Part shown: in pieces, positions 12,702 to 30,732 of the stretch
Layout: every line of letters starts with the position of its first letter
How positions within the stretch are numbered: the stretch's first letter is position 1
Origin: Candidatus Latescibacterota bacterium
GTDB taxonomy: Bacteria; JAAXHH01
Reading direction: 5' to 3'
DNA: 64,000 nucleotides
Assembly (NCBI GenBank): GCA_022822725.1
Contig: JAJEAN010000001.1
Coordinates: 186,001-250,000 of the forward strand
Notes under the pieces: generated by a model
The model's input: only the letters and a program-made list of their open reading frames with translations
Databases searched by the model: none
Told to the model about the DNA's origin: nothing
Translations under genes and position numbers: made by a program

Positions 12702-14358
12702 TAAGCTGGCCGCCTTCTACCCCGGTCGCGACGTCTCTCGCGCCGCCGGGCCAGTCCACGATGACCGAGTCCGCTTCGGCGTGGGCACCGAGTCCGAAGT
12801 GGGCCCTGAGGTCATTGGCCGCCAGGTAGCTGTAGGCGCTTCGGATTTCCCGCGACTGTCGCACAGCGCCTGTGACCACGGCGACACGCGCGCCGATGCC
12901 GTTTCGATTGCTCCGGACGCCCTCGGTGGCGACGAGCAGACTGTGCGCATCCTCCCCCCCGGTCCCGTCGTTCCGCAGCAGCAGCGGGACATCGTTCACC
13001 GTGGTGACCAGCACGTCGATGTCGCCGTCGTTGTCCACGTCGCCGAATGCCGCGCCCCGGTGCACGCGCTCCACCTGAAACGGCGCGCCGGCGCGGTCGC
13101 TGATATCGGTGAATCGTCCATCGCCTTCATTACGGAACAGCTGATTGGTCTGCGGGTAGGTAATCGTCGGATCGAACAGGGAGATGTTGTCGATCACGTG
13201 GCCGTTCGCCGCGAAGATATCAAGCCACCCGTCGTGGTCGAAATCCTTGAAGCCTGTACCGAAGCCCAGATAAAGGAGCGTGGGATTGCCCACGCCCGCG
13301 CCGAAGGTGGTTTCGGTGAAGGTGCCGTTCCCGTTGTTACGGTGCAGCGAGTTGGGTTCCAGGGAGAAATTGGTCACGTAGATATCCGGCGACCCGTTCC
13401 GGTCGTAGTCTCCGATATCCACCCCCATGCCCGCCCGGGCGACGCCGTCTTCGCCGTAGGCCACGCCCGCCAGCAGGGCCATGTCGGTAAACGTGCCGTC
13501 GCCGTTGTTCCGGTACAGGAAATCCGGCGTCAGGTCGTTGGCCACGAATATGTCCGTCCAGCCGTCCCCGTCGTAGTCGCCACCCACGACCCCGAGGCCC
13601 TTGCCTTCCGGATTGGCGATGCCCGCCTCCGCGGATACGTCGGTAAACGTGCCGTCGCCGTTGTTCCGGTACAGCAGGTCGGCGGCGCCCTCGTAGATGT
13701 CGGGTCCGCAGTAGGACTGGATGCCGTCCCGAACGCATCGCCTGTTGGTCTCGAACGCGAATTCGACGTATGCACACACGTAGAGATCCAGGTGCCCGTC
13801 CCTGTCGTAATCCAGGAACGCCGCGCTGGTCGAGAACGTGGGATTCCGCGGTACCGTCAATCTCGTCCGAGCGGTCACGTCCGTGAATGTCCCGTCGCCT
13901 TCGTTCCGGTAGAGGACGTTGGCCCCGTAGTTCGTGACGAACAGATCGTCGTCGCCGTCGTTGTCATAGTCCGCGACGGCCATGCCCATCCCGTAGCCCC
14001 CCGCGTTGCCCACGCCGGCCTGACCGGTCACGTCCGTGAAGGACCCGTTCCCGTCGTTGCGATAGAGGGCGCTGGACAGAGGCCGGTCGGGCACGAAACC
14101 CGGGATGGCCGCGCCGTTGAGCAGGTAGACGTCGAGATCGCCATCTCCGTCGTAATCGATAAACCCGCCACCGGACGCCACCGTTTCGAGGAAGTAGTAA
14201 CGGCCCGATTTGCCATTGGTGTGCCGGAACGTGATCCCGGCCGAAGGCGCGATGTCCGTGAATTGCACGACCGCCCGGGAAGCATCGGGAAGATGATCGG
14301 GCTGGCTGCAGGAAGGAATGATAAACAGGAAGGTGAGAAGGACCGGAACCCGGATCAA
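12646..14358 (-). CDS. CRTAC1-type lipoprotein with FG-GAP/VCBS repeats and ASPIC/UnbV domain
   Basis: A 570-residue exported protein, last gene of the eight-gene minus-strand cluster. N-terminal lipoprotein signal with lipobox-like FIIPSCSQ (Cys about residue 17). Then at least six VCBS/FG-GAP repeats, each with a calcium-loop core such as DYDGDGDLDVYLLNG, DYDNDGDDDLFVTNYG and DYDGDGWTDIFVANDL, and the recurring LYRNNGDGTFTDV, forming a beta-propeller. The C-terminal ASPIC/UnbV domain (about 470-555) contains GIGARVAVVTG, LRAHFGLGAH and VDWPGGAR. The family is surface-located; its biochemical role is unknown. It shares an ATGA overlap with the upstream gene, indicating translational coupling, and a 56-bp 3' overlap with the flippase gene. 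Confidence 0.9.
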   Translation of the reverse strand: MIRVPVLLTFLFIIPSCSQPDHLPDASRAVVQFTDIAPSAGITFRHTNGKSGRYYFLETVASGGGFIDYDGDGDLDVYLLNGAAIPGFVPDRPLSSALYRNDGNGSFTDVTGQAGVGNAGGYGMGMAVADYDNDGDDDLFVTNYGANVLYRNEGDGTFTDVTARTRLTVPRNPTFSTSAAFLDYDRDGHLDLYVCAYVEFAFETNRRCVRDGIQSYCGPDIYEGAADLLYRNNGDGTFTDVSAEAGIANPEGKGLGVVGGDYDGDGWTDIFVANDLTPDFLYRNNGDGTFTDMALLAGVAYGEDGVARAGMGVDIGDYDRNGSPDIYVTNFSLEPNSLHRNNGNGTFTETTFGAGVGNPTLLYLGFGTGFKDFDHDGWLDIFAANGHVIDNISLFDPTITYPQTNQLFRNEGDGRFTDISDRAGAPFQVERVHRGAAFGDVDNDGDIDVLVTTVNDVPLLLRNDGTGGEDAHSLLVATEGVRSNRNGIGARVAVVTGAVRQSREIRSAYSYLAANDLRAHFGLGAHAEADSVIVDWPGGARDVATGVEGGQLITIREGAGIVSRTPFPRR

Positions 14359-14918
14359 CGGCGTTTTCTCATGAGTACGACGGTCATGGCCACGAGGACA
14401 AGCACACCCAGGCTGACCCCGGCGACGAGAAAGCCCGACACCGGTTCCCTGATCAGCGGAACCTCGAAGGTGGCGCGCGTTTTCTGTTCACCGCGCACCG
14501 AAAACTCCACGTCGACGTGATGTACGCCCGGGACGCGCCGGGTCCACATGATCGGACGGTCAATGGCCTCGGCTTCGGCGCTGTGGTAATGCGTGTATAC
14601 GTTGCCCTGTGGATCCGTGATCCCGATCCGGAGGACGCCCGCATAGTAATCACCCGTCGACCGGCGCTGGACGTAGGTCACGAACCGTGCGTCGCCGCCG
14701 AGATCGTAGGCTTTGAAGGTCAGTGTATATCCGGCCTCCATCTCCCGCGCTTCGTCGACGACGGCCTGCTCGGAGAACGTGTATCCGACGAAAGTGCCGC
14801 CCGCCACGTGACTGTCACTGGGCACCCCGTTGCAGGCCAGGGCCGTGACCGCCAACGTGACCACGGCCGTTACAGCCGCCGTGAACACCGGCGTGATGCC
14901 TGTCATGATTCCGCGCAC
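14355..14918 (-). CDS. Unrecognised exported protein, lipoprotein-like signal and C-terminal membrane helix
   Basis: A 187-residue protein I cannot name. Visible: a hydrophobic leader rich in Ala/Val/Thr ending VTALACNG, which resembles a lipobox (Cys about residue 29); a predicted beta-rich extracytoplasmic domain of about 125 residues (MEAGYTLTFKAYDL to RATFEVPL) that could be Ig-like, distantly recalling FixH/YtkA-type domains; and a C-terminal helix (VSGFLVAGVSLGVLVLVAMT) ending in MRKRR, which would anchor it in the inner membrane. GTG 14918 shares one base with the upstream stop TAG; ATG 14906 is an alternative start. The leader itself is a degenerate repeat. It is tightly coupled to both neighbours in the envelope cluster. 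Confidence 0.72.
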   Translation of the reverse strand: MRGIMTGITPVFTAAVTAVVTLAVTALACNGVPSDSHVAGGTFVGYTFSEQAVVDEAREMEAGYTLTFKAYDLGGDARFVTYVQRRSTGDYYAGVLRIGITDPQGNVYTHYHSAEAEAIDRPIMWTRRVPGVHHVDVEFSVRGEQKTRATFEVPLIREPVSGFLVAGVSLGVLVLVAMTVVLMRKRR

Positions 14919-16045
14919 TAGTTGTACTCCTCAGGAAAAACGAAGTTGTACCGGACGACTCTGTCCTCCTCCAGTTCCGCGAAATAGATCCGGCCCTGCC
15001 GGTCCACGTGCATGGGAACGCCGACCACATCGAACTGAGCCGACATTTCCCACTTTCCATCCGGCCTGAAGAAATCGAACCATCGATCCAGTTTCGTCAT
15101 CTGCAGCCTGGGCATGCCCATCGCGTTGAGACCGACCTGTTCGAATTCCTGGTACTCTATGGAATTGACGATCCGTCCGTCGGGCAAAACGGCCAGTCCG
15201 CCGGACACGCCCACGGGCGGCGGCCGCCGCGTGGTCGTCCAGCGGGCCATGGGTTTCATATCGAAGGAAGTGGTCCGGTTGAACTCCAGCTCCAGTCCGT
15301 TTACCCGGTCGAATTTACGGATCCAGTAGGGGTGCCTCGCGGAAACGACCACGTAACCGTCCTCCGTCGTTTCCATGGCCGCATCGGAATACGCGATGAA
15401 TTCCTTGAGCGTTCCCGATCGCCGCAGGGTCTCCATCGGATTGTAGAACTTGGTGATCGGATCTCCTTCCGGACTGTATTTATAGATGAGATCGTGCTGC
15501 GTAATCACGAAAACGAGCACGTTCCCCTCGGCATCGATGCGTATGCGTCGAGGCTTCGTGACCTGCGTGGACCAGATGTCCGCGAAGGTGAGGTCCGGAT
15601 TGAATACCGTGACCCGGTCGAGTGCGTTGTCCAGCACGAACAGTCTTCCTTCGTCATCCAGCGCCATGTCTACCGGAGACTTGAACTGCAGCGGTCCCAC
15701 ACCCAACGACCCCACGGCCGTCTGAAAGGAACCGGTCTCGTCGAACCTGGAAATCCGGTTCTGGTACGAATCGGCTATATAGATGTTGCCGCTTCGATCC
15801 GTGGTGATCCCGAACACCGAAGCAAAGGACCGGCCCTCGGCTCCTTCGATCACCAGGTCTTCTTCGAGCATGACGTCAGCCGTTTGATCGGGGGCGTGCC
15901 GGATCGGGGCGTCGCTGATGACCCTTGAAGCGCCCGCGATCACTTCCGTTCTCCCACGCCACATCCCGTCATCGTCCGCTTCCGTGCAACCCATCAGAAG
16001 TGCCGCGGCCAGGAGCGGCAACGCTCCGGACTTGAACCGCTTCAT
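14918..16045 (-). CDS. Six-bladed beta-propeller (NHL-type) lipoprotein
   Basis: A 375-residue exported protein. The signal MKRFKSGALPLLAAALLMGC ends in a lipobox (Cys20). The remainder shows NHL/6-bladed-propeller repeats: FGITTDRSGNIYIADSYQNR, SPVDMALDDEGRLFVLDNAL, RIRIDAEGNVLVFV, GGLAVLPDGRIVNS and VPMHVDRQGRIYFAEL, each a blade with a G-N/R-I/L-Y/F core. Such propellers act as binding scaffolds or, rarely, as enzymes; the ligand is unknown. Start ATG 16045 has a clear AAGGAG box. The gene sits 25 bp after the TPR gene and ends by sharing one base with the next start. Confidence 0.85.
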   Translation of the reverse strand: MKRFKSGALPLLAAALLMGCTEADDDGMWRGRTEVIAGASRVISDAPIRHAPDQTADVMLEEDLVIEGAEGRSFASVFGITTDRSGNIYIADSYQNRISRFDETGSFQTAVGSLGVGPLQFKSPVDMALDDEGRLFVLDNALDRVTVFNPDLTFADIWSTQVTKPRRIRIDAEGNVLVFVITQHDLIYKYSPEGDPITKFYNPMETLRRSGTLKEFIAYSDAAMETTEDGYVVVSARHPYWIRKFDRVNGLELEFNRTTSFDMKPMARWTTTRRPPPVGVSGGLAVLPDGRIVNSIEYQEFEQVGLNAMGMPRLQMTKLDRWFDFFRPDGKWEMSAQFDVVGVPMHVDRQGRIYFAELEEDRVVRYNFVFPEEYN

Positions 16046-16070
16046 CCGTTTCTCCTTCCGGTACGTCCAT

Positions 16071-17693
16071 TCATGAACCATTCCTTTCCTGCCTGATCTG
16101 CTCCCATCGCTGCTGCAATATGTCGTTCTCCGGCTCGATGCGGACGGCATTCCCCATCGCCTCATCGGCCCCGCCGTAGTCCCCTCTCGCGTTCCGCACG
16201 ATGGCCAGCGTTTCGTAGGCGACGGCGGTAGGCGCGATCTCAACCGCCCGGCCGGCCAGTTCCAGGGCACGGTCCAGGTCCACCCCGTGCCGGGCGATGA
16301 GCCAGGCCAGGTTCGTATAGGCCTCGACATAATTCGAATCGAGCTGGATCGCCTGCTGGTATGCGTTTCGAGCCTCTTCGTACATACCCAGCTCCACGTA
16401 AGCTACGCCCAGGTTGTTGTAGGCGTGAACGAAACGGGGCGACAGCTCCGTCGCTATCCTGAATTCCCGCACGGCGTCCTCGTACCGGCCCAGGCGGGTC
16501 AGGGCCGTTGCCATGTTGTAATGCACCTCCGCCACCCGCGGGTTCAGCCGTACCAGGGATTCCGCCTGCGACAACGCTTCCCTGAACCCGTTGAGCTGCT
16601 GAAACGTATCGAGAAAACGCCCGGCATCTTCCGGTCTACCCATGGCGTTCAGGGTGTTTCCGATGGCAAGATAGGGTTCGGGGTACGCCCGGTTGAGTTC
16701 GACCGCCCGTGAGAACGCTTCCAGGGCTTCTTCATGCCGTTGGTCGGCCGCATAGGCCGTGCCCGCATGGTATTGCAGGGTAGGCGACTCGGGATCCATC
16801 TCCAGGGCATCCCGGTACAGCGTGATCGCCCGTTCAGTCCGGCCCGCCCGCAGCGAGGCCTGGGCGAGGCCCGCGATGGCCTCCACCGAAACCTCATCGA
16901 TGCGCAGCGCGTTCTCGTAAGACCGTACCGCGTCGTCGACCCGGCCTTCGCTCAACGCGATGACACCGAGTTGGCAGTAGGCCTGGGCCATGCCGGTTTC
17001 CACCTGCAAGACCGCGCGAAAGGCATCCCGCGCTTCCTGGAATTTACGCTGATCCAGGAGCACACGGCCCAACGCGTACCGGGCGTCGGCAAAGTCCGGA
17101 TCGATGGACAGGGCATTGGTATAGGAGATCTCGGCCTCGCCAAGGGCGCCCAGTTTCTCTTCCGTGGTCCCCCGGCCGTAGTGAAACAGGCTGTTGTCGG
17201 GGTCGCGATCCGTCGCCTCGACGAACGACTTGATCGATTCGACAAGCCGGCCCGTATACTGGTAGGCCTGGCCCAGATTGTAGTACGGTTCGACGCGATC
17301 GGGATCCATTTCCACGACGCGGCGGAAGGCATCGATCGCGTCGTCGTACCGTTCCTGCTGGGCGTAGACCAGACCCAGGTTGAAACGGGCATCGACGTCT
17401 CCGGGACGCAGTTCGGTGACGACCAGGAAGGCTGCTTCCGCCGTATCCAGCTTATCCAGTGCGACGGCGGCCAGGCCCAGGTTGAAGTAGTTGGAAGGTT
17501 CGTTCCTGTTCTCCTCGATCTGACGTCGGAAATGCATCACGTCTTCGAGCAGAAGGGACTCGTCCTCAGGCGACAGTTGCCTGGGTGCATCATCCTGACG
17601 GACGTTGGATATTTGCGTGATGTATGGACCGGTGTCCATGAGCAGGAGCAGGGGCAGGAAAAGCAAAAATACTACGAGGAGGATATTGCGCAT
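16071..17693 (-). CDS. Membrane-anchored tetratricopeptide (TPR) protein
   Basis: A 540-residue protein with one N-terminal hydrophobic segment (MRNILLVVFLLFLPLLLLMD), an uncleaved anchor or signal, then about 12 TPR units of 34 residues from about residue 65 to the end. Canonical units include NYFNLGLAAVALDKLDTAEA, ARFNLGLVYAQQERYDDAID and AYNNLGVAYVELGMYEEARN. TPR arrays are protein-interaction scaffolds; location is probably periplasmic, facing the cytochrome and propeller lipoproteins encoded next to it. It starts 10 bp after the cytochrome gene with only a weak ribosome site, suggesting coupling. TPR proteins beside ASPIC/UnbV proteins are common, but the partner relation here is inferred. 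Confidence 0.88.
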   Translation of the reverse strand: MRNILLVVFLLFLPLLLLMDTGPYITQISNVRQDDAPRQLSPEDESLLLEDVMHFRRQIEENRNEPSNYFNLGLAAVALDKLDTAEAAFLVVTELRPGDVDARFNLGLVYAQQERYDDAIDAFRRVVEMDPDRVEPYYNLGQAYQYTGRLVESIKSFVEATDRDPDNSLFHYGRGTTEEKLGALGEAEISYTNALSIDPDFADARYALGRVLLDQRKFQEARDAFRAVLQVETGMAQAYCQLGVIALSEGRVDDAVRSYENALRIDEVSVEAIAGLAQASLRAGRTERAITLYRDALEMDPESPTLQYHAGTAYAADQRHEEALEAFSRAVELNRAYPEPYLAIGNTLNAMGRPEDAGRFLDTFQQLNGFREALSQAESLVRLNPRVAEVHYNMATALTRLGRYEDAVREFRIATELSPRFVHAYNNLGVAYVELGMYEEARNAYQQAIQLDSNYVEAYTNLAWLIARHGVDLDRALELAGRAVEIAPTAVAYETLAIVRNARGDYGGADEAMGNAVRIEPENDILQQRWEQIRQERNGS

Positions 17694-17703
17694 GCCGTAC
17701 CCG

Positions 17704-19632
17704 TCAATCGAAGTAGGATCTGATACGATCGCGGAGGCTCAGCCCTTTCGAAGGCGTGGAAACTTCCAAGTGTCCGACCGGCCGTACCGAGGTGACGTCC
17801 GAAGCCACGGTCATGTCTTTCTGCGTCCACTTCTTGAGATCCGCCAACGGTTTGAACGCTCTCCTGTATATCAGATCGGTATGGATATCCACGCGGTCGA
17901 CACCCGTCGGCATTTCAAAGATATACACAGAACGGTCTGCCTCGCGCGCCTTGATTCGCGTGTCCTCGACTATGCGGGTTGCTTGCCAATCCATAACGTG
18001 GGTATTACCCTCGTCATCACCGAAAACCAGGGCAAATCCCTTGCCCGGGTAGCCCGCGTAGTTTCCTTCGGCCAGATCGCCTTCACCGCCGTAGGACGGT
18101 ACGCGCTGGTCCCCCACGTAACGCAGGGTATCGCCATTGGACAATACGGGCGTGACGAGCAACAGCATGTTCCTGATGGTGATCCCCGATGGGATATGGT
18201 GGCCGGTATTGACGTTCCGCACGTCCACCGTCACCGCCAGCTGCCCGCTTGAAACAACGGCATCTATGGCCAGGGTGGCGGCGTTAGGCAGAAGCTCCTC
18301 CGTGGCCCCGGGGAACCCGTGCGTTTTAACGGTGGTCGGGTCCCGGTATCCGATGGGTGTCCAGAACTTCTCCGCATCGCCGTTTACGAACGAACCAAAG
18401 GTGAATCCGTCGGCATCGGGTTTCATGTGGCAGTCCTGGCACTCGATGCCCATGGCCGAATAGGGGCTGTCCTTCCACTCCTGGTACGTATCCATGAACG
18501 GAAGGCCGTGCTTGTTCTTGTGCTGGTGGCAGGCGGAGCAGTAGTCGCTGCTCGTGTAGATCGGATTGTAACTGGCCACCATGGGCGAAGTGTTGGATGA
18601 TCCCGGCAACGGGGTGAAGTTGATGACGTCGTCATAGGGACCGTAGACGAATATCGGCGGGAACTTCCCCTTGATGAGGCGGGCCTCCCGTTCCTCTTCC
18701 ATGGCCACCAGGTTCAGGGTTACCGATCCGTTCACGCCCGCGTGATCATTAACCTCCACATTCTGTATCTTGTGGCAGAAGTCGCAGTGAATCCCCGCAC
18801 CGTCGACCGAACCGGCCATTCTTTCGTACTCCATGCGTTCAAGCGTCTTGTAGTCCTGGACGGTCGGATAGGCCTGCGAACGATTGTACACGACTTTCAG
18901 GTCGGTGTGGCCCGGTGCGCGTACGGCGGCCGAGGGGGCGTGGCAGTCGGCGCATTCTCCGGCTTCATCGGGGAAATCCAGCCGGAAGCCGGGCCCCACG
19001 TTCTCATTGCCGTCCGCATCCGTACCGTCGTAGAGATTCAAAGTCCACGGATTGGTTACGCCTTTCGCGTGCTGGGAAGCACTCCATTGATCGTAGAGGT
19101 CTCTGTGGCAGAGGTAACAGGTCGGTTCGAAATGGCAGAGGTTGCATCCCTCTTCAAAGCCCGTGTGGGATTGCGTGCGCAGACGCTCCAGTTCTTCCGG
19201 GTCCTCGCGCAGGTCGACCAGTGATTTGTGAGGAGTGATGAAATCGTAGGATTCGTCTTTTTCTTCGGGTACTTTTTGCAATACGATCGTCGTATATGAT
19301 GTTTTGGGATCTACCATGACCCCGCCATTCAACCAGCCTTCCTTGCCGGCCGTTACCGCGTAATGCTGCACAGGATCTTCAATGATGTTCAGGGTGAACC
19401 TGCCCTCGGAATCGGTAAGCACGTAATCCGGTTTTCCGTGTTCCCGTACGCGGACATCGGGTATGGGGTCTTTCCCATCGATAACGACACCGCTCAACCG
19501 AACGGCCTGGGCATGCGCATCCAAACCGGTCAGCGCCATGGCGGATGCGATACATCCGATCACGAAAACCTTTATCACCTGCCCGTATCCGCTCAGCCCT
19601 TTCAACATCATCGAATGCCCCAATTCTTTCAT
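17704..19632 (-). CDS. Secreted hexaheme c-type cytochrome with N-terminal carboxypeptidase-regulatory-like domain
   Basis: A 642-residue exported protein. After a signal (hydrophobic to about residue 41, AHAQ) comes a CarboxypepD-reg-like beta domain (about 45-120, VRLSGVVIDGKDPIPDVRV). Six CxxCH haem c motifs follow at residues 163, 172, 227, 283, 365 and 398 (CNLCH, CYLCH, CADCH, CDFCH, CSACH, CQDCH), resembling the cytochrome c554 / multihaem superfamily. A haem-free C-terminal beta-rich part (about 440-640) contains NTGHHIPSG. It is probably a periplasmic or surface electron carrier or oxidoreductase. ATG 19632 lies right against a 12-bp hairpin; ATG 19611 (Met-Met-Leu-Lys) is an alternative start. 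It is gene 4 of the cluster. Confidence 0.9.
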   Translation of the reverse strand: MKELGHSMMLKGLSGYGQVIKVFVIGCIASAMALTGLDAHAQAVRLSGVVIDGKDPIPDVRVREHGKPDYVLTDSEGRFTLNIIEDPVQHYAVTAGKEGWLNGGVMVDPKTSYTTIVLQKVPEEKDESYDFITPHKSLVDLREDPEELERLRTQSHTGFEEGCNLCHFEPTCYLCHRDLYDQWSASQHAKGVTNPWTLNLYDGTDADGNENVGPGFRLDFPDEAGECADCHAPSAAVRAPGHTDLKVVYNRSQAYPTVQDYKTLERMEYERMAGSVDGAGIHCDFCHKIQNVEVNDHAGVNGSVTLNLVAMEEEREARLIKGKFPPIFVYGPYDDVINFTPLPGSSNTSPMVASYNPIYTSSDYCSACHQHKNKHGLPFMDTYQEWKDSPYSAMGIECQDCHMKPDADGFTFGSFVNGDAEKFWTPIGYRDPTTVKTHGFPGATEELLPNAATLAIDAVVSSGQLAVTVDVRNVNTGHHIPSGITIRNMLLLVTPVLSNGDTLRYVGDQRVPSYGGEGDLAEGNYAGYPGKGFALVFGDDEGNTHVMDWQATRIVEDTRIKAREADRSVYIFEMPTGVDRVDIHTDLIYRRAFKPLADLKKWTQKDMTVASDVTSVRPVGHLEVSTPSKGLSLRDRIRSYFD

Positions 19633-19639
19633 TACATAA

Positions 19640-19673
19640 GAGAATCCCTCATCGAACGGACTGAGGGATTCTC
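19640..19673 (-). other. 12-bp perfect inverted repeat at the PorV / cytochrome junction
   Basis: GAGAATCCCTCA (19640-19651) and its exact complement TGAGGGATTCTC (19662-19673) enclose a 10-nt loop. On the minus-strand transcript it forms a stable hairpin 57 bp after the porV-like stop and only 7 nt before ATG 19632. No U-run follows, so it is more likely a processing, stability or attenuation element than an intrinsic terminator. Confidence 0.82.
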
Positions 19674-19729
19674 CAGTGCTTCAGCTAACGTTATTTCTTT
19701 CCATCCATCGGTACTTCCTGGCTTGTTGT

Positions 19730-20713
19730 TTAGAAGCCCACGCCGACGGACACGCGATGCAGGTCATCCAGCAGATTGTACTGCGTATACGCGTAATCAA
19801 CATTGAGACTTAATTCACCCTGGCTGAACCGGAGACCGGCGCCAGCAGAAACGCCTTCATCCTGGCCGCCGCTGTATCCGGCTTTCCAGCCAACCCGGCC
19901 CGCGATGTATTCGTTCACCCACCACTCGATACCGAGATTGAGCACGGAATCGAACTCGCGAAGCTTCCAGAGTTCGGCGCTGGTCATCAAGCTTCCCACC
20001 GGCAGTTCGTACGGTTCAATGGCAAAACCGATACGGAACGTAGTGGGCAACTGGTCACGAGCGCTCGACTCATCGATGAACTGCATATCCGGACCGAAGT
20101 TCTGGAACGAGGCGCCAATACGGAAGTTACGGAAATCCGTCGTATAGATGGTGCCCACGTCGACCGCCACCGCCGTGCTGGTCCGGTCATCGTCACCGGC
20201 GCCGCTCGTGCCTTCCGACACGTACTTCAGCGAACCGCCGACCGCGAACGAATCGGTCAGACGACGTGCATAACTCGGACCGATGGCCAGGTCCGTCACG
20301 TTAAAGTTCTGGCCCTGGTTGGCGAATTGACCCGTCGGATCTCCAGAGGTGGTATAGGGTATGTCGCCCGAAAGCAGCGAATGCACACTCACACCCACAG
20401 CGCCGTTGTCGCCGAGATTCCAGACGAGGCCTGCGCTGAACACCGTCATTTCCGCAAAATACGGAGCGTAGGAAACGCCGACTGCACCTCTGCCCTCTAC
20501 GAACACCATGGTAGCCTGGTTCGTCAGGGCCGAGAAGGCGCCCAGATCCGTATAGGAAGTGGCGGAAGATGCAACACCTGCGACACGTGCGCTGGAATCG
20601 AGCGTCAGAAACTTCGTCGCGGCGGTTCCACCTTTGGAAACCTGAGCATGTGCCGGTGCTGACAGTGCCAGCAGGAGTCCGGTGACCACGCCCCAGCGAA
20701 ACAATACTTTCAT
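19730..20713 (-). CDS. PorV/PorQ-family outer-membrane barrel protein
   Basis: A 327-residue outer-membrane protein: signal MKVLFRWGVVTGLLLALSAPAHAQ, then the PorV/PorQ-like opening KGGTAATKFLTLDSSARVAGVASSATSYTDL with an N-terminal fold resembling FadL-type beta barrels. Alternating amphipathic strands end in an aromatic residue (VSVGVGF), as expected for insertion by the BAM complex. In Bacteroidota PorV shuttles type IX secretion cargo to the surface attachment machinery. Its position immediately after a gene for a protein with a type IX-like sorting domain supports that role, though core secretion genes are not in this window. ATG 20713 has a strong GGAGG box; the 12 codons upstream are excluded. 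Confidence 0.88.
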   Translation of the reverse strand: MKVLFRWGVVTGLLLALSAPAHAQVSKGGTAATKFLTLDSSARVAGVASSATSYTDLGAFSALTNQATMVFVEGRGAVGVSYAPYFAEMTVFSAGLVWNLGDNGAVGVSVHSLLSGDIPYTTSGDPTGQFANQGQNFNVTDLAIGPSYARRLTDSFAVGGSLKYVSEGTSGAGDDDRTSTAVAVDVGTIYTTDFRNFRIGASFQNFGPDMQFIDESSARDQLPTTFRIGFAIEPYELPVGSLMTSAELWKLREFDSVLNLGIEWWVNEYIAGRVGWKAGYSGGQDEGVSAGAGLRFSQGELSLNVDYAYTQYNLLDDLHRVSVGVGF

Positions 20714-20742
20714 TAGAAAACCTCCCTGAATCGGACCGCCCC

Positions 20743-20771
20743 GCGCCATGGCCCGTCATGGCCCATGGCGC
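20743..20771 (-). other. 9-bp perfect inverted repeat between the surface-protein and PorV-like genes
   Basis: GCGCCATGG (20743-20751) and CCATGGCGC (20763-20771) can pair around an 11-nt loop in the 74-bp gap. No U-run follows. It is one of three strong hairpins at successive junctions of this cluster. Confidence 0.75.
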
Positions 20772-20787
20772 TGGACGTAACCGCAGT

Positions 20788-23700
20788 TTACCGCCGGACG
20801 TAGAGTTTCAGTGTCTTCGCGTAGTCCACGCCACCGATCTCGGCTTCTACCACGATGATATACAGACCGCTGGCAACCGGCACGTTGGAATCGTTCTTCA
20901 GATCCCAATCCGTCACACCGCCGATCGTCGTGGTCTGGTCACCCGGCACGGAGAACTGCTTCACCTGCAGGCCGGCCGCATCGAAGATCGTGATGCGGGA
21001 CGGTACCGGAGCGTTGAAGAACTTGACGGTTTGCGACTTCGTTGCCAGATCCCACTGGGCCTGGAAGACGAAGGGGTTCGGCGCGACTGTGATCAGATTC
21101 TCGAATTCGGCCACACCAGCCGCAACCTCGTTACGGACCACGGTAGTCGGGATAACGTCCTGTCCCGGTACCTGCGGTCCCACCGTCAAACCACGGTACG
21201 GATACTGGCCGTGCCAGCGTCCGTCCGTACCGTTCGCGTTCATCGTGTAGAAACTCTCGAGCCCGTTGATCGTACGGGTAATAACGCGCTGCGAGGAGCC
21301 TTGATCTGCCACGTAGTTGTCGAAATCGTGCTGTTGCGCGCTTTCGTTATCCACCGAGGCTACGTAGTACCAGTAGCTGAAACCGATCAGCACGGAACGA
21401 TCTTCGAACATATAACCGCTCTTGCCGACCAGGCGGGGATCAGTGGCAATTCCGCCGACGCTGGTAATCTGCGCATCGCCGGATCCGATGGCATCCGGAT
21501 AGCGATCCGAGAAGCTGGTGGCGATGGCTGTCGTAGCGCCCAGAGCATTGTTCGCTTCGACGATCTGAGCCGAACTGGGCTTGGTTTCGACGAAATCATC
21601 CTCGAAACCAGGCAGCCTGTCGCCAGCCGGATACGGGTTCGGATAGGAAACGGACTCAGGCGGATTCAGGCTGTTGGTCTGATTTCCGCCGCCGCCGCCG
21701 AATTCAGCGATCTGTACGTACGGACCGGAGAAGTTCGGCGCCGCGAAGCGCTTCACTAGGTCGTCGGCCACGAAGTCGTACACCCGGCCGATGTTGTAAT
21801 CGGCGCCGAGTGTCAGGCCTTCGTGGATGAACCGGGCGTAGGGATGGCCCTGCTTCACCGCGGCACTCGTCGGATCGGTTACGTCCGTGACCGGTGCGGC
21901 GCCTTCGCTCAGACCGAGGTTCGGCGGGATCACCGTACTGTTGTAACCGACTTCATGGGCTACCGTAGCGGTCGGGAACTGATCGATGAAACCGGAAGCG
22001 CGGTATACGCGGTACTTCGCGAAATCCACGGTTCCCCGGCCCGGATCAATAGCCGTTTCCGCATTGTTGGCCCACGCCAGCGCGATCGTACCGTTGGCGG
22101 TCGGGAAGACCGACAGGGTAGGAGGCGGAGGCGGGTGGAACAGCGCGCCGCTGGCTGCGCCGCGACCGAAGTTGATCGTCTGCGACATTACAGCGCCGTC
22201 GGCGTCCCGCATGACGGAACCATCCGCGTTGTACATGGGGATGGTACGGTCATTGGAACCGTCCCAGTAGTACGTGTTGTTGGCCATGTTGTACTTCCGC
22301 TGCATCCAGACGTCCTGCGCGCGGAGGTAAACGTCGTAAGCGCCATCCTTGCCAGCGCCGATGAGGTCAACATGCCAGATGGTCAGGTCTTCGCCGGGCG
22401 CCTTGGTGTAGGGGCCCCAACCCAGGGCGTTCCGAATGCAACCGGCGCCCGAGGTCTCTTCCTTCGTGTCGCTTCCGTTGTACGGATCGGGGACGATGCC
22501 CTTGAACACGCCGTCAAGATCGAAGAGCGTAACGCTGTCGTACTGACCAGGCTGCAGACCAAGGGCAGCCACGCCGGGATTGCCGGACTGGCCCAGGTTG
22601 CGCGGGTCGCCCCACATCAAGCCCATGCCCGCGGCCGATCCACCAGGCTGCGTCTTGGCGGTCCAGGTGCTGATATCGGTCTCTCTGCCGAGAGGAGAAC
22701 CGCTGGTGAAGAGATCCGGATGCGGCGCACTGCTTCCGCCCGGAACGTTGACCTTCTTGCCCTCGAGGTACTTGGTAAGCGAACCCTCGTACCAGCCGAA
22801 CACGCCTCTCAAGTCGGCAATCCACCATTCGTGGGTATTGAAGAGGCCGACGGACGGCGCATCGTAGATATCCAGCGCCGCGACGTTGTTCGTGTCACCA
22901 AGGGGATCATCGTCGCCGGAACCTTCAAGAATCATCAGGGACGCTTCGCCTACGTGCAACGGATTGAAGTTACCGTTGGTCGTATTCCACACGTAGGAAT
23001 CGATTCCCGGATGTCCCGGATTGTCCTCGTCGAACATGGTGACCAGGCCCGAATAGAACCGGTCGTCGTACGGAGCCTGGTTGAAACGGCCCGAATTGAT
23101 CAACCCTTCCGGTACGGCGAGCGGCATCACACGGCTGAACATGGCGGGCGGCTGCTTGTCGTCGCCACCGGTACCGCCGCCGATCGCCCCACCCGTAAGC
23201 AGCGGGTTGTTCGTCCACGGAATATCGAAGTCGTAATTGAAGATGATCAGGAAGTTCCTGACCGTAACGCCTTCTTCTTCCAGGGTGCCATCCGTATTCA
23301 CGTCCACGTCGCCATGCACGTTCAACACATGACGCAGCAGGATGAAGTCATTCGTATGGCCGTAGCCGTAGCTGAAGCTGTACGATTGACGCAGGATACG
23401 GATGCCGCTGTTCGTGTTGAAGGTAGCTTCCGTTATGAAGGGCTCACGGTATCCACCGGGGCCCACGGTGCCGCCACCGAAACCGGGACTGGTCGAACCA
23501 CCCTGATCGGACCAGAAGCCCGCAGGCGGATTCTCACGCTTGTGAGGCGGAGCCCGGTATACGTTGTTGGTACCGACAAAAGCGCCTTCAGCCCGGCTTG
23601 CAGGCATACCGGCCACGGCATTGGGCAGATAGGCCGTAATGCCGAAGGCAGACGCCCACAGCGGCGCATCCAGCCCGCCCGCCGGGAAGGTGTACGAAGG

Positions 23701-23982
23701 AAAACCCATCGTAGGACTCATGGAACGGCCCGACCCACGCCAACCCCAACCGGTGTAGGTATCGGTCAGTTCCGAATTCATGACGGCCATATAGGTCTGG
23801 CCGCCAATATAGGCATCCTGTCTTTCATCCACGCCGAGCTCGTGAGGTATCGGAACCAACTGAGCCGTCGCGGAATTCGCCGGGGCGTCCGGCAACGCCG
23901 TGAGATATGAAGCTGTCCCAAGGATTGCCGCCGAAGAAAGCACCAACGCTCCGGCTGTTACGTATCGACGCCATTTCTTCAA
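20788..23982 (-). CDS. Large secreted protein with type IX-like C-terminal sorting domain
   Basis: A 1064-residue exported protein. A signal-like leader (KKWRRYVTAGALVLSSAAIL to about residue 41, ending SATAQ) precedes a long central region of unrecognised, Gly/Asn/Pro-rich beta character. The C-terminal hundred residues match FlgD-Ig / T9SS type A sorting domains: VAPNPFVFQAQW, RITIFDAAGLQVKQF, WDLKNDSNVPVASGLYIIVV and final KTLKLYVRR. The start is taken as TTG 23982, because an AAGGAGG box sits 6 bp upstream and the signal begins there; the frame stays open further upstream without a ribosome site. It is gene 2 of the cluster, probably displayed on the cell surface with help of the PorV-like product. 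Its ligand or activity is unknown. Confidence 0.85.
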   Translation of the reverse strand: MKKWRRYVTAGALVLSSAAILGTASYLTALPDAPANSATAQLVPIPHELGVDERQDAYIGGQTYMAVMNSELTDTYTGWGWRGSGRSMSPTMGFPSYTFPAGGLDAPLWASAFGITAYLPNAVAGMPASRAEGAFVGTNNVYRAPPHKRENPPAGFWSDQGGSTSPGFGGGTVGPGGYREPFITEATFNTNSGIRILRQSYSFSYGYGHTNDFILLRHVLNVHGDVDVNTDGTLEEEGVTVRNFLIIFNYDFDIPWTNNPLLTGGAIGGGTGGDDKQPPAMFSRVMPLAVPEGLINSGRFNQAPYDDRFYSGLVTMFDEDNPGHPGIDSYVWNTTNGNFNPLHVGEASLMILEGSGDDDPLGDTNNVAALDIYDAPSVGLFNTHEWWIADLRGVFGWYEGSLTKYLEGKKVNVPGGSSAPHPDLFTSGSPLGRETDISTWTAKTQPGGSAAGMGLMWGDPRNLGQSGNPGVAALGLQPGQYDSVTLFDLDGVFKGIVPDPYNGSDTKEETSGAGCIRNALGWGPYTKAPGEDLTIWHVDLIGAGKDGAYDVYLRAQDVWMQRKYNMANNTYYWDGSNDRTIPMYNADGSVMRDADGAVMSQTINFGRGAASGALFHPPPPPTLSVFPTANGTIALAWANNAETAIDPGRGTVDFAKYRVYRASGFIDQFPTATVAHEVGYNSTVIPPNLGLSEGAAPVTDVTDPTSAAVKQGHPYARFIHEGLTLGADYNIGRVYDFVADDLVKRFAAPNFSGPYVQIAEFGGGGGNQTNSLNPPESVSYPNPYPAGDRLPGFEDDFVETKPSSAQIVEANNALGATTAIATSFSDRYPDAIGSGDAQITSVGGIATDPRLVGKSGYMFEDRSVLIGFSYWYYVASVDNESAQQHDFDNYVADQGSSQRVITRTINGLESFYTMNANGTDGRWHGQYPYRGLTVGPQVPGQDVIPTTVVRNEVAAGVAEFENLITVAPNPFVFQAQWDLATKSQTVKFFNAPVPSRITIFDAAGLQVKQFSVPGDQTTTIGGVTDWDLKNDSNVPVASGLYIIVVEAEIGGVDYAKTLKLYVRR

Positions 23983-24021
23983 AATGAACCTCCTTATGCC
24001 GGCAACGTTCCGAGAACGCGG

Positions 24022-24070
24022 CCAACGTTGCGGGAAGACGCGCGGTTGATGCGCAACTTCCCGCGTTGGA
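24022..24070 (-). other. Large imperfect inverted repeat after the TonB receptor gene
   Basis: CCAAC and GCGGGAAG on the left (24022-24037, separated by a 3-nt bulge) pair with CTTCCCGC and GTTGG on the right (24058-24070). CGC/GCG can pair inside. It lies in the 89-bp gap between the receptor stop and the TTG start of the surface-protein gene; no U-run follows. Confidence 0.75.
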
Positions 24071-24071
24071 T

Positions 24072-27000
24072 TTACCATGCTAAGTTGAGACCTACCCAGA
24101 TATCGCGTGGTCCGTTGGCCTGCGTACCGATTCCACCTACCGGACCGCCTACGAGACCCACTGGATCTCCACGGCGTTGCCACCGGTCGCCGGTCGCGTT
24201 GGACGAATCGCCGGTGATGGAATAGATGTTCGTCCGGTCGAAGAGGTTATTGACCTGGGTGAACACACCGAGCCGTACGTTGCCGAGATCGAAGTTCTTC
24301 TGGGCGTAAAGATCGGTGGTCCAGGTCCACGGCGAACGCTGTGCGGCGGCGAGCAGTCCGAGCGGATCGATCGCCTGGTCGCTGGACGTGCGATACTGGT
24401 TGCCGCTCTGCGCCTTGGTCAGGAAAGAAGCGCTGATGCCGTAGGGCAGATCGAGCAGGAGGTTCGTCACAATACGATGACGACGATCGAAACTGGTGAA
24501 CTCGCGGATGTAGGTATCCGGTGTCGGGACCCCATCTACGAAGTCGGAGAATACAAGCACCGTTTCGCCGCCACGTTCGCGGACGGTTTGCGGCGTGGTC
24601 AGATCCGACGTGAAGGCCAGGGTGTAGTTGGCCCGTACCGAGAACCGGTTGGCCATCTGGCGCCGCAACGAGATCTCGAGACCGCGCGAATCCTGGGCGA
24701 ACGTCGGAAGGAGGATGGATACCTCGCGTTGCGAACCGCCGATGAAAGCTACGTCCGGCGCGAAAAGCCAGGTAAGCGGCTGGTTGTTCGCATCCCGGAA
24801 ATAACCCGTTACGTCCATGTAGTAACCGGGATAGATCTCGGCCTGCAGACCCATCTCGTAATTCGTGGACTTCTGGAACGGCAGGTCCGGGTTGCCGTGA
24901 TTACGCTCGAACGGCGAGGTCTGGACCAGGCCCATGTACAGGTCCTGCAGCGGCGGGCGCTGGTTGAAGATGCCGTATGAATAGTGCAGCGCGGCGCGGT
25001 CCGTGATCGGATGAGAGATACCCAGGCGCGGCGCCAGACCCGTCTTCATCGACGGCTCTATCGTACGGTATTCCGGATCGTCGTGCTCCGGACCGGGGCC
25101 CGAGCGCGGACGGTACGGGTTGATCGCATTGGCGTTGGCGTCGAAGATATCCAGCCGCAGCCCTGCGTTCACCACGAGACTACCGTACTCGATCCGGTCC
25201 TGCATGTACGCGAAGTACTCGACCGGATACACGTGCGCCTGCCGGCCGGCGAGGGGCAGCGTGCTGGCGGTCGGATCCACATTGAGGTCATTGAAGAGCG
25301 TCACGGCGTTACCCCTGGCGGGGCCTCTCGTGCTCTCTTCATAGTCGTTCATGGTCACGCCGAAACCACCCTTGAACTGATGGTTCGAGTTCACCTGGCT
25401 GGTGATGGCGAAGTTGAGATCCGTCTTGAAAGGCCGTACGCTCGAGTAGTTGCCGAAATCGATCGCGGAATAGGCCTCGTCACCGTACAGGAGATAGGGC
25501 ACCTGCGTTCCGGCGCCTTCCTCGAGTACCGAATAACCTACGGAGTTGATGAACGCGGAAGTAAACGCCGGCAGGGGTTCCTTGCCGTACTTGGGATTGT
25601 AGCGTTCAACGTATTCGCGCAGATGGCTGAAGCGGATCTCGTAGAAGGTACGCGGACTGAGCGTGTGGGTAAACGCCATGTTCACGTGGAACCGGCCGTT
25701 GTAGGCCTGGTTGCGACCTTCCGAATTGTATTTCCAGGCGTAGGGCGTACTCCGCTGACCCTTCCTGCTGAAGAAACCCTGGTCTTCGATGAGTCCGGAC
25801 ATGGACAGCTTCATGGCGGTCTGTGGCCGGTAGGTCAACTTCACGAAGGAGTTCATCAGGCGGGAGTAGTCATTGGGATTGCGTCCCCAACTCTCGCTGA
25901 ACCGGCCTGAAGCGAACCAGTTCAGCTTGCCGCCCAGCGGACCGCCCATGCCGAAGTCGATCTGGACCGGGCGCTTCTCCGTCCGGTTGTTCCGGGCGAA
26001 CTGGTTGTACTTGTCCGGGTTGAACGAACGATCCACCGGCGCATCGCGGTTCACCGCGACACCGCTGTTCGCCTGGGCTTCCGGCAGGCCGTCCGTCAGG
26101 TAGGACCAGAGGATGGCTTCGGGTTCGGGAATGACCCGGTCGTAATCCCAGTAATAGTTGTCACGCTTGTAGATGGCGGACCAGCTGTCCGGCGCGCCGG
26201 TCATATCCAGCACGTCGAACGGGTCCTGCATCCTGAGACCGTCATCGGCACGGGCCGGATCGCTGTTGAAGGCGTTGGTCTTGTCGATCGCGCCCTGGAT
26301 GATATCGCGCAGATCCTGCTCCGACCAGGTACCGGCCCGGTAGGCGTCGACGATATCGAGATCGGGCGGCTTGGTCCAGTTGAGGCCCTTCTGACCGAGC
26401 GTGCGGTACTCGAAGTTGCCGTTGTAACTGGAACCGCCTTCACGGGTCACCACCGTGGTGATGCCTGCCAGCGCGTTTACGTACTCGGCGTTGAACGTAC
26501 CCGTCTTGACCTGAAGTTCCTGGATCATGTAAGGGTTGATCGTAAACGCCTGTCCTCTGTTCAACTGCTGGCCCGTCACCGTGGAACCGTCGATCGTGGT
26601 CTGCTGATCCTGGGGACGGCCGCCGCGAAGGTTGCCGGCGAAGCTGCCCGCGGTGGTCAGAACCACTTCGGCGATATTCACCACCGGCAGCGCCTGGATT
26701 TCTTCGGCCTGCACGACGGTCCGGGTGGAGGTAAGACTCTTCTCTACCAGGTCCCTGGTCGCCACGACCTCCACCGCTTCGGCGGATTCGAGAATCGTGG
26801 ATTCCAGCTCGAAGTTGAGGGTCGTGGTGATATCGGCATCCACCTGCGTACCTATGGCACGCACCGGGACATAACCGATGACGTTCACCACCAGGGTGTA
26901 GGTGCCGGGCGGTACGTTCAGGATGAAGTACTCACCCATGTCGTTCGCCATCGCACCCAGAACAGTGCCCTCGACTGCGACACTGGCGGCCGGCAGGGGT

Positions 27001-27134
27001 TCCCGCGTCGCACCGTCGACCACGACACCGGAAATCTTGCCCAGCGACAACTGCGCCTGTGCTTCCGTCGAGATGCTGAGCACTAACGCGAAAGCGAATG
27101 CGAAGCGCAAAGCTCGTGAAATTATTATAGACAT
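24072..27134 (-). CDS. TonB-dependent outer-membrane receptor with carboxypeptidase-regulatory-like domain
   Basis: A 1020-residue outer-membrane receptor. Signal MSIIISRALRFAFAFALVLS to AQAQ (about residue 28); CarboxypepD-reg-like domain about 33-115 (SGVVVDGATREPLPAASVAV, PPGTYTLVVNVIGY); plug domain about 130-250 (IQALPVVNIAEVVLTTAG, TIDGSTV); then a C-terminal beta barrel ending in aromatic Trp (WVGLNLAW). Such receptors import large substrates using TonB energy; the layout is SusC/OmpA-related without a SusD partner here. A GAGGAGTG box lies 7 bp before the ATG. First gene of the eight-gene minus-strand cluster, preceded by the longest spacer in the window. Substrate unknown. Confidence 0.93.
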   Translation of the reverse strand: MSIIISRALRFAFAFALVLSISTEAQAQLSLGKISGVVVDGATREPLPAASVAVEGTVLGAMANDMGEYFILNVPPGTYTLVVNVIGYVPVRAIGTQVDADITTTLNFELESTILESAEAVEVVATRDLVEKSLTSTRTVVQAEEIQALPVVNIAEVVLTTAGSFAGNLRGGRPQDQQTTIDGSTVTGQQLNRGQAFTINPYMIQELQVKTGTFNAEYVNALAGITTVVTREGGSSYNGNFEYRTLGQKGLNWTKPPDLDIVDAYRAGTWSEQDLRDIIQGAIDKTNAFNSDPARADDGLRMQDPFDVLDMTGAPDSWSAIYKRDNYYWDYDRVIPEPEAILWSYLTDGLPEAQANSGVAVNRDAPVDRSFNPDKYNQFARNNRTEKRPVQIDFGMGGPLGGKLNWFASGRFSESWGRNPNDYSRLMNSFVKLTYRPQTAMKLSMSGLIEDQGFFSRKGQRSTPYAWKYNSEGRNQAYNGRFHVNMAFTHTLSPRTFYEIRFSHLREYVERYNPKYGKEPLPAFTSAFINSVGYSVLEEGAGTQVPYLLYGDEAYSAIDFGNYSSVRPFKTDLNFAITSQVNSNHQFKGGFGVTMNDYEESTRGPARGNAVTLFNDLNVDPTASTLPLAGRQAHVYPVEYFAYMQDRIEYGSLVVNAGLRLDIFDANANAINPYRPRSGPGPEHDDPEYRTIEPSMKTGLAPRLGISHPITDRAALHYSYGIFNQRPPLQDLYMGLVQTSPFERNHGNPDLPFQKSTNYEMGLQAEIYPGYYMDVTGYFRDANNQPLTWLFAPDVAFIGGSQREVSILLPTFAQDSRGLEISLRRQMANRFSVRANYTLAFTSDLTTPQTVRERGGETVLVFSDFVDGVPTPDTYIREFTSFDRRHRIVTNLLLDLPYGISASFLTKAQSGNQYRTSSDQAIDPLGLLAAAQRSPWTWTTDLYAQKNFDLGNVRLGVFTQVNNLFDRTNIYSITGDSSNATGDRWQRRGDPVGLVGGPVGGIGTQANGPRDIWVGLNLAW

Positions 27135-27286
27135 CTAGTTCACTCCTCGTTTAACAGAGCCCTTCTGATTATTGTCAGCTTGCCCCGGCCTGCTGACGGT
27201 ATCGTAATGTTGCAGAACCGACATCAAATTCCAGCTGCACTTCTTTCGACGCTCACCTCCCTCCAGCGATGGTAATGGGGCAATCG

Positions 27287-27315
27287 TATATAAATAAGTA
27301 ATCTGAATACCTTAA
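27287..27315 (-). promoter_or_regulatory. Candidate promoter for the eight-gene envelope cluster
   Basis: On the minus strand TTAAGG (plus 27310-27315), 17 bp, then TATATA (plus 27287-27292), about 155 bp upstream of the TonB receptor ATG in the AT-rich spacer. The -35 is weak, so this is tentative. Confidence 0.38.
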
Positions 27316-27660
27316 AATGATAGAAACGACAAACATGACGGCCACGTGCAAGGGCATGAACACGCGACGAAACATCGATTTTGAATGTCAGGAATCCGAG
27401 TCATTATCAAATGCAAACAACGTGCCAGTTTTCGAACCGGTTTCGGACGTACACGTCTCCCTGCCCGAAACCCCATGAGACTCTAAGTGAAACAAGTCCA
27501 TGCGCCGTATTTTGACACCTGTATGGGGCCGTTCCGGACGACATGTAGCACGAAATAAATTTCATCCTGTGATCAGGGCTGAAACGAATTGCACAACACG
27601 GCCCGAATCCATTACGCGTTTTTACTCATCACAAACACCGCGAACGCCGCCAATTCTTTC

Positions 27661-27689
27661 TTGACATTGCACACGGCCCCGCATAAGGT
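27661..27689 (+). promoter_or_regulatory. Candidate promoter for thrC-dacB
   Basis: Perfect TTGACA at 27661-27666, a 17-bp spacer, then TAAGGT at 27684-27689, about 145 bp before ATG 27834. The -10 box matches at only 3 of 6 positions. Confidence 0.4.
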
Positions 27690-27833
27690 GTTGCGCTGGT
27701 AATGGTTCGGCTGTGTTTAGCAGTGTGATAAACAGCGATCAACAAGTTATATCCGGTCCCCGTCATAGTCAACATTTTATTTCATTCTTACTCAAAAAAA
27801 CCGGTATTGGCGGGAATAAAAAGCGGGTCCTTC

Positions 27834-29155
<1,322 letters not shown>

Positions 29156-29159
<4 letters not shown>

Positions 29160-30697
29160 TAACCAGAACGAGGCTTAAATCCAGGCCGAGGCTCGGCGCG
29201 GCCGCCTTTCCCACTACCGCCGGTTTTTTGCTGCCGGTCCTGGCCCTGGCCCTGCTCGTGCTCGCCTGCGGCGGACCGTTGCAGTTCCGCGGGGGGCCTT
29301 CCGGGCCGGAACGCCGCCTGGCGGAGGACATCGGCCGGATCCTGGACCACCCGGATCTTGCGCCCATGACCATCGGCGTGAAGGTCATGTCGCCGGTCAC
29401 GGGCCGGGTACTCTACTCACGGCATTCCGACGGACTTTTCCATCCCGCGTCCAATACGAAGCTGTTCACCGCCATGGGCGTCCTGCAGACCATGGGCCCC
29501 GACTACCGCTACCTGACGAGCGTCTTCGCGGATGGAGACGCCAATGCCGGAAGCGACACGCTTCACACGTCGCTGTACCTGCTCGGGCGCGGAGACCCCA
29601 TGCTTGAATCGACGCACATGGACAGCCTCGCGGGCCTCGTCGCCGGGTCGTACGGCGCTCGGGTCATCGCGGGCGACATCGTCGTCGACGACGCCTACCT
29701 GGACGGGGTACCCTACGGCGAAGGATGGATGTGGGACGACGTGCAGTACAGTTATTCCGCCTCCCTGAACGCGCTCTCGGTAAACGGAAACAGCGTGAAG
29801 ATCGGCATATCGCCCGGGGCCGCCGTCGGCGCGCCCGTCACGGTCCGGGTCGATCCGCCCACGACGTCCGTCACCTTCGAAGTGGAGGCCGTGACCGCGG
29901 CGGCGGGGGATACCTCGTCCGCCGAACCGCTCAGGATCGAGCGGGACTGGCCGTCGCGGTCCAACCGGATCACGATAACCGGCCGGGTCCCCATGGACGC
30001 GGGCGAGCGGGAGTTCTTCCGGTCCGTCGAAGCACCCGGCCTGTACGCGGGGAAACTGTTCCGGGACAGGCTTCAGGCCCGCGGGGTCCGCGTGACGGGT
30101 CCGGTCCGGAGAGGCGTCACGCCGGCCCGCGCCCGGGAGGTGGCGACCTACCGTTCGCCGCCGGTGACCGAGGCCCTGGCCCGCCTGCTCAAGGACAGCC
30201 ACAACCTGACGGCGGAACTGCTCATCAAGACCATGGGACGGCACGAGACGGGCGAGGCGGGCTCGTCCTCCGACGGGCTGGCCGCCCTGCGGAAGGTCCT
30301 GTCGGACTACATCGGCCTGGACCCCGACACCTACCGGTTCGCGGACGGTTCGGGCCTTTCGTGGTACAACTACGTATCGCCCGACCAGGTCGCGGCGCTG
30401 CTTACGGCGGCGTACCACGATCCCGCGATCGCCGCCGACTTCCTGGAAGCCCTGCCCGTCGCCGGGGTGGACGGCTCCCTGAGAAACCGGATGAAGGATA
30501 CGGCGGCCATGGGCAACCTCAGGGCGAAGACCGGCACCTTGAGCGGCGTGAGCTGCCTGAGCGGCTACGTCCATACCCTGGACGGCGAACCCCTGGTTTT
30601 CTCGATCATGATTAACAACTTCGTCGGGCCGGCGTCGACGGCGCGCGGTGCGCAGGATGCGATCGGCGTCCTGCTGGCGGGATTCAGTCGCAAGTGA
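29156..30697 (+). CDS. dacB: D-alanyl-D-alanine carboxypeptidase/endopeptidase (PBP4, S13) lipoprotein
   Basis: A 513-residue penicillin-binding protein of peptidase family S13, trimming D-Ala and cleaving cross-links in peptidoglycan. The three active-site motifs are present: SxxK in HPASNTKLFTAMG, SxN as KDSHNLTAELL, and KTG in LRAKTGTLSGVS. The large insert domain between the first two motifs, typical of PBP4, is present. A leader ending LALLVLACGG looks like a lipoprotein signal, so it would be membrane-anchored. It overlaps thrC by 4 bp and the next open frame by 4 bp. Confidence 0.92.
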
Positions 30698-30732
30698 CCC
30701 GGCGCAGGTCACGTTCCGGGAAGGGGCCTGAT

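Follow-up and report, generated by a model that had tools for sequence, protein, structure and literature searches.

Hairpins kept in place between the first four genes of an outer-membrane operon, most likely of Latescibacterota, point to RNA-based control of protein amounts

The window investigated in this study, a stretch of 64,000 nucleotides from a genome of 3.8 Mb, carries on its minus strand the consecutive genes tonB, surf, porV, cyt, tpr, nhl, hyp and crtac (Table 1). This order is identical in 15 of 15 relatives, as far as the retrieved stretches extend, and the 11 named relative loci carry the depositor labels Latescibacterota (six), Gemmatimonadetes (three), Zixiibacteriota (one) and uncultured bacterium (one); we regard the genome as most likely belonging to Candidatus Latescibacterota. 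In the following, tonB, surf and porV are referred to as block 1 and cyt-tpr-nhl-hyp-crtac as block 2, with the junctions tonB/surf, surf/porV and porV/cyt termed J1, J2 and J3 and the minus strand taken as sense. The last gene of block 2 and a convergent frame (11220–12701) overlap with their 3' ends at 12646–12701, thus leaving no terminator gap between them. The third-position GC content of surf, porV and cyt (17704–23982, minus strand) is unusually low, corresponding to percentiles 7.6, 2.5 and 5.2 of 674 genes.

Table 1. Features of the envelope gene cluster, in window positions.
Feature	Position	Strand	Remarks
Sigma-54-type promoter site, TGGCAC-N5-TTGC	27413–27427	−	sole exact match in window
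Conserved tonB leader (5' UTR)	27135–27400	−	invariant GCCCC and GGGGC blocks; from alignments of relatives
tonB, TonB-dependent/SusC-like receptor with CarboxypepD_reg and Plug	24072–27134	−	Pfam; NCBIfam matches below cut-off
J1 hairpin A with outer extension	24022–24069	−	core stem 24030–24064, 7 nt past tonB stop
J1 hairpin B	24001–24023	−	predicted fold, 95.7% of cells paired; just upstream of surf Shine-Dalgarno (23989–23995)
surf, probable secreted surface protein, TTG start	20788–23982	−	weak T9SS-type C-terminal domain, TIGR04183
J2 hairpin	20737–20777	−	core 20743–20771, 10 nt past surf stop
porV, PorV/PorQ family outer-membrane protein	19730–20713	−	PF19572 E 5.8e-17; NF033709 E 1e-53
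J3 hairpin	19640–19673	−	12-bp perfect stem, single copy in genome
J3 interrupted T tract, TTATGTAA	19632–19639	−	T columns kept in alignment; T runs in L051, L053
cyt, multihaem c-type cytochrome-like, first gene of block 2	17704–19632	−	NF040886, below cut-off
tpr, TPR protein (block 2)	16071–17693	−	
nhl, NHL/6-bladed beta-propeller (block 2)	14918–16048	−	
hyp, block 2 protein	14355–14918	−	Pfam/NCBIfam: no family at E<=1e-3; one Pfam match at 0.97
crtac, FG-GAP/UnbV-ASPIC protein (block 2)	12646–14358	−	

All 16 genomes of the order contain surf. The gene apparently starts with TTG (23980–23982, minus strand), preceded by a perfect ribosome-binding site, and TTG stands at this position in all 15 J1 gaps read. 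Together with porV it may form a type IX secretion pair, as suggested by the C-terminal domain of surf (TIGR04183, E 0.003, a weak match under the family cut-off) and by a match to SprA_N above cut-off in a frame of 2128 residues of the same genome, which has no counterpart in 14 control genomes. The true start of cyt probably lies near 19610, and the alignment of relatives begins at residue 8–41 in 11 of 15 cases.

Each of the gaps J1, J2 and J3 holds a strong inverted repeat, at 24022–24069, 20743–20771 and 19640–19673 of the minus strand, which confirms the positions given in the initial annotation. Folded in isolation, J1 (24022–24070), J2 and J3 reach −27.8, −22.5 and −19.6 kcal/mol, with z-scores against dinucleotide shuffles of −5.6, −4.6 and −4.5, and J3 appears weaker when folded within its whole gap (z −1.9; 7 of 200 shuffles equally good). 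The repeats are perfect or near-perfect, as had been described, with an uninterrupted stem at J3 and one mismatch and one G-U pair in each of the stems found at J1 and J2 by the stem rule defined below. Their characterisation as lacking a U-run is appropriate for J1 and J2, with two and three T in the 8 nt past the stem, but too loose for J3, where four of eight positions are T. At J1, hairpin B constitutes an extra element that had escaped the earlier description; it shares two bases with hairpin A and both would thus compete at their edges. The gaps of J1 (89 nt) and J2 (74 nt) are almost filled by hairpin plus ribosome-binding site, with J1-B and J2 ending slightly upstream of the AAGGAGG/GGGAGG sites, which are unpaired in the predicted folds except for three bases at J1. 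The downstream genes are indeed packed and free of hairpins, their gaps in the window measuring 10, 22, −1 and −4 nt. An unrefined terminator scan gave no site at any of the three junctions and, over positions 12000–31000, 10 sites compared to 12.8 in shuffles and hence fewer. Above the gathering score, Rfam 15 identified only three tRNAs in the window and no match to the junction hairpins.

To place these hairpins within their genome, we used a stem rule that was chosen after the three had been seen (11 or more pairs, of which no more than two G-U, no more than one mismatch and a loop of 3–14 nt) on 40 stretches of 20 kb plus the window, amounting to 864 kb. Genes were taken from a home-made ORF caller, which dropped crtac and mis-set the start of surf, so that J1 was counted in the class of 131–400 nt. 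Among same-strand gaps, 9 of 199 between 30 and 130 nt pass the rule (2.4 in shuffles), two of which are J2 and J3, and 19 of 103 between 131 and 400 nt (5.5). For the same length classes, the counts are 1/45 (0.4) and 7/19 (1.0) in convergent gaps and 1/5 (0.2) and 8/68 (5.1) in divergent gaps. The pass rate of short same-strand gaps elsewhere (7/197, 3.6%) translates into about 5e-5 per place for three consecutive passes and, assuming about 2000 such runs, about 0.1 per genome. The run of three in a single genome is thus only suggestive and it is the relatives that settle the question. The eight hairpins found in convergent gaps are followed by 5, 6, 5, 4, 4, 4, 0 and 3 T in 8 nt (at least four in six of them), and the T tract of J3 resembles those of the weaker ones. 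Classical T tails are found on several convergent and same-strand hairpins of this genome, and the U-less hairpins are therefore not merely its style of ending transcripts. Within the window, terminator-like hairpins with T-rich tails are located in same-strand gaps at 60332–60407 and 51632–51713 (plus strand). Two other measures were discarded: a ranking of gaps by energy alone (J2, J1 and J3 at 2, 33 and 77 of 432), the top of which is crowded by GC-rich repeats and mis-called starts, and a count of perfect stems (3 of 163 same-strand gaps of 40–120 nt with at least nine pairs), whose loop limit of 16 shuts out J1.

With the window included, 15 J1, 16 J2 and 16 J3 gaps were examined across the order, and the stem rule is passed by 13, 14 and 16 of them, compared to shuffled expectations of 0.55, 0.15 and 0.45. 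In the same clusters, the rule is passed at 2 of 20 control junctions (0.35 in shuffles), the cyt-tpr gaps of L044 and L050, where controls are block-2 junctions of at least 30 nt, a threshold that leaves out most of those of the nearest relatives. The failures concern L041 and L049 at J1 and L046 and L049 at J2, whose gaps nevertheless fold, one of them weakly, with −27.2, −28.1, −30.3 and −17.6 kcal/mol; by eye, L041 exceeds the G-U limit and the other three contain internal or large loops. Fold z-scores range from −2.3 to −5.6 at J1 (n=12), from −1.5 to −6.1 at J2 (n=16) and from −1.6 to −10.1 for the whole J3 gap (n=16), compared to −0.9 to +2.0 in the 20 control gaps. The J2 and J3 hairpins of L049 are weak (z −1.5 and −1.6), and in the J3 gap of L053 the best-folding hairpin is a different one close to the stop codon. 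No steady energy order J1>J2>J3 was found among the genomes. In those passing the rule, the stems of J1-A and J2 start 6–13 nt past the stop codon and are followed by 0–4 T in 8 nt. Their sequences have been replaced wholesale between lineages, with about six different stems distinguished by eye for J1-A and six or seven for J2, although a motif CCTGCAC in J2 is common to L050 and L046–L048. As the genomes are related, these data comprise few independent events and their strength resides in the wholesale replacements. The hairpins thus keep their position, strength and structure while the sequence turns over, and they are nearly absent from the other junctions. Hairpins that remain in place while their letters often change point to RNA elements that would set the amount of each protein.

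Covariation at J1 is consistent with selection on structure. In an alignment of seven genomes, 99% of the cells of helix A are paired, and the combined structure of A and B contains three pairs changed on both sides, with 5 of 500 shuffles equally good. The covariation score is higher than in all 500 shuffles, slid controls are paired in 36–56% of cells and G-U pairs occur at several positions, but pair types are no more numerous than in shuffles (349/500 as high). An exchange between G-C and A-U is found inside the clade L046–L048, and hairpin B is also predicted in this clade and in three further J1 gaps. At J2, variation within the genus is too small to provide informative changes.

The properties of J3 are distinct. 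In 13 of the 16 phylum members searched, its stem, GAATCCCTC/GAGGGATTC, has a single match, each adjoining porV by its coordinates, and unlike at J1 and J2 it is the flanks that vary while the stem stays. In 13 aligned rows, 10 of 13 pairs are invariant, one changes from A-U to G-C in three rows and the outer pair is G-U in seven; pairs changed on both sides are not more frequent than in shuffles (288/500). Unrelated stems replace it in L049 (G002) and L051 (G015) and a T-tailed variant in L053 (G014). Past the stem, T positions are kept in the alignment, with four T in 8 nt in the window and 2–6 in relatives, and in the distant L051 and L053 a full, classical terminator-like T run is found. 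J3 resembles a leaky terminator more closely than a stabiliser, although the conservation of its stem letters exceeds the needs of a terminator or a plug.

Ahead of tonB, the window contains a match to TGGCAC-N5-TTGC, which we take to be the sigma-54-type consensus. Such a site is present in 13 of the 13 genomes with the leader that were examined, 291–297 nt before tonB (352 in L050), and the genome encodes RpoN (PF04552, E 6.4e-52). Since exact matches are not enriched over the genome (10 on the two strands together, compared to 8 when the pattern is reversed), it is the conservation of the site that supports a promoter, from which the operon would be driven. The transcript is assumed to start about 12 nt past the promoter, and the ensuing leader, which is strongly conserved, gives one strong match each in 13 of 59 genomes searched and weak matches in four more, with no Rfam match at E<=5. 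Judged by eye, a possible pseudoknot would join its GCCCC block to the GGGGC that a GTCAGC/GCTGAC hairpin carries in its loop. A leader ORF was dismissed, its frame not being kept between genomes (by eye).

These junction hairpins appear to be a novelty of the order, because no such hairpin was found within 110 nt past the stop codons of seven TonB-receptor paralogues and one PorV paralogue of the same genome, some of which are weak controls with only 2–10 nt to the next gene, and because the gaps between surf-like and porV genes outside the order (L017, L018, L020 and L023) are, by eye, too short for a J2-type stem. Codon bias shows no sign of high block-1 expression: the percentiles among 674 genes are 78.9, 28.6 and 11.0 for the likeness of tonB, surf and porV to ribosomal-protein codon usage, and 35.5, 9.9 and 2.8 for their CAI, a proxy that is uninformative here because codon choice in ribosomal-protein genes is almost that of the genome as a whole. 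The proteins of block 1 are closer to their L039 counterparts (95.4, 95.9 and 98.5% identity) than are most of those of block 2 (92.2, 87.8, 93.1, 87.2 and 83.7%), a difference in line with higher expression, though other causes exist. The graded expression proposed in the initial annotation thus finds partial support in the conservation of hairpins that mark the junctions of block 1 and in the T runs at J3, and none in codon usage. Its picture of an RNA-stabilised first block requires revision at J3, which looks more terminator-like, and is extended by the double element of J1 and the sigma-54-type site ahead of tonB.

Taken together, we assign a probability of about 0.6 to a mechanism in which J1 and J2 act as U-less 3'-protective stem-loops and J3 as a leaky internal terminator between both blocks. 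The whole operon would be transcribed from the sigma-54-type promoter into a single polycistronic RNA, which the stem-loops at J1, J2 and J3 would divide into segments. An endonuclease would open the RNA within the gaps, upon which J1-A and J2, located a few bases beyond the tonB and surf stop codons, would halt 3'-to-5' exonucleases, so that each upstream message survives separately. Ahead of the ribosome-binding site of surf, J1-B might shield the new 5' end or hold the site open, and the leakiness of J3 would let part of the transcription enter block 2. As an outcome, receptor, surface protein and PorV would exceed the block-2 proteins, with ratios tuned at each gap. In this mechanism, we infer co-transcription, cleavage, exonuclease blocking, partial termination and the resulting protein ratios.

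Alternatively, all three hairpins could be internal intrinsic terminators of differing leakiness, in which case the grading would be conferred by transcription and not by RNA stability. Such a role would be compatible with the interrupted T tract of J3 and the T runs of two distant relatives and also with internal terminators of Clostridia, which in the part of the study cited here are long-stemmed with few U and terminate 20.7–96.1% of transcription (PMC9045158), but it appears unlikely in light of the 0–4 T past J1 and J2, compared to the T content of most convergent-gap hairpins. Slightly less probable is a function of J3 as recognition site, either a DNA operator with dyad symmetry at a promoter of block 2 or an RNA recognised by a specific protein, with the hairpin being secondary. 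This would account for a single-copy stem that is kept between variable flanks, unlike J1 and J2, but not for its replacement in L049 and L051, which carry unrelated stems, and in L053, with its T-tailed variant. Moreover, the frequent G-U at the outer pair reflects pairing in RNA and not in DNA, and a scan of 12000–31000 for sigma-70-type promoter-like sites gave a single site and none near J3.

We consider it more doubtful still that J1 and J2 serve as translation insulators, which would bar ribosomes or stray structure from reaching the next gene and hold its ribosome-binding site open. The accessibility of the sites following J1-B and J2 would agree with this role, but it is a property of predicted folds, and the closeness of hairpin A to the stop codon as well as J3 would be left unexplained. 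An origin by chance or by insertion of dispersed palindromic repeats of the REP or MITE type is highly improbable, although insertions could produce the wholesale replacement of stems between lineages: neither J1 and J3 over the whole genome nor J2 over 946 kb is present in many copies, with only partial matches of at most 18 nt for J1 elsewhere in the genome and for all three within 946 kb, and a second copy of the J3 stem is absent from the whole genome. The similar placement past stop codons across genomes and a compensated base substitution in J1 equally argue against it.

The favoured combination of protective stem-loops and a leaky terminator has counterparts in described systems, which we compare on the basis of excerpts of the respective studies. 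In the excerpt on Escherichia coli, 26 out of the 34 upstream genes that are stabilised have their end immediately past a stable hairpin without U tract and menBCE contains consecutive protective hairpins (PMC5927463). The decay of malEF and menBCE resembles the present case in the U-less hairpin past an upstream gene, the consecutive hairpins and their conservation in relatives, but the structures described there are generally found inside coding sequence and here in gaps (PMC5927463). In the excerpt on the cip-cel operon of Clostridium cellulolyticum, stem-loops underlie selective RNA processing and stabilisation (SRPS; PMC4423207), a process that is predicted from stem-loop energy in a further study, as far as quoted here (PMC8219983). 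Both operons encode cell-surface machinery and carry stem-loops at the 3' ends of genes, with a mean of −23.45 kcal/mol over stretches of 100 nt at the 3' processing sites there and −19.6 to −27.8 kcal/mol over 29–49 nt here, values that are not like-for-like (PMC4423207, PMC8219983). In contrast to our comparison of sequences, the cip-cel work measured both where the RNA is processed and the ratios between transcripts, and the nearly complete rewriting of J1 and J2 stems between lineages and the tandem pair at J1 distinguish the present operon from the part of that system described (PMC4423207). Of the hallmarks of SRPS and differential decay, we find stable 3' stem-loops in a one-strand cluster, their structure kept in relatives, and the absence of a U tract at J1 and J2, with J3 being intermediate; the T-rich tract expected past the stem of an intrinsic terminator is missing at J1 and J2. 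The one conserved sigma-54-type site ahead of tonB would be compatible with a single primary transcript. J3 in turn shares its long stem, reduced U content and location at the border of two gene sets with the low-U terminators located inside clostridial ABC-importer operons, as excerpted, but not the conservation of its stem, which a terminator would not need (PMC9045158).

Collectively, hairpin-regulated operons are already known, and it is the well-conserved set in this operon that appears new. Our literature search found nothing on the RNA biology of this bacterial group and, for Sus-type operons, no paper. The wholesale rewriting of stems combined with their kept position is about the cleanest signature of selection for structure that intergenic gaps can offer, and the difference between J1 and J2 on the one hand and the kept stem of J3 on the other separates junctions where any hairpin would do from one whose very sequence may be read. 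A trans-acting factor, perhaps itself a product of the operon, could read J3 to switch the cytochrome genes of block 2 on or off, a proposal that we regard as speculative and rather unlikely; if true, the envelope operon would combine two structural RNA spacers with one sequence-specific RNA switch. In a group whose relatives considered here bear only names of metagenome assemblies, comparison alone thus exposes a likely post-transcriptional control of dosage in an outer-membrane operon.
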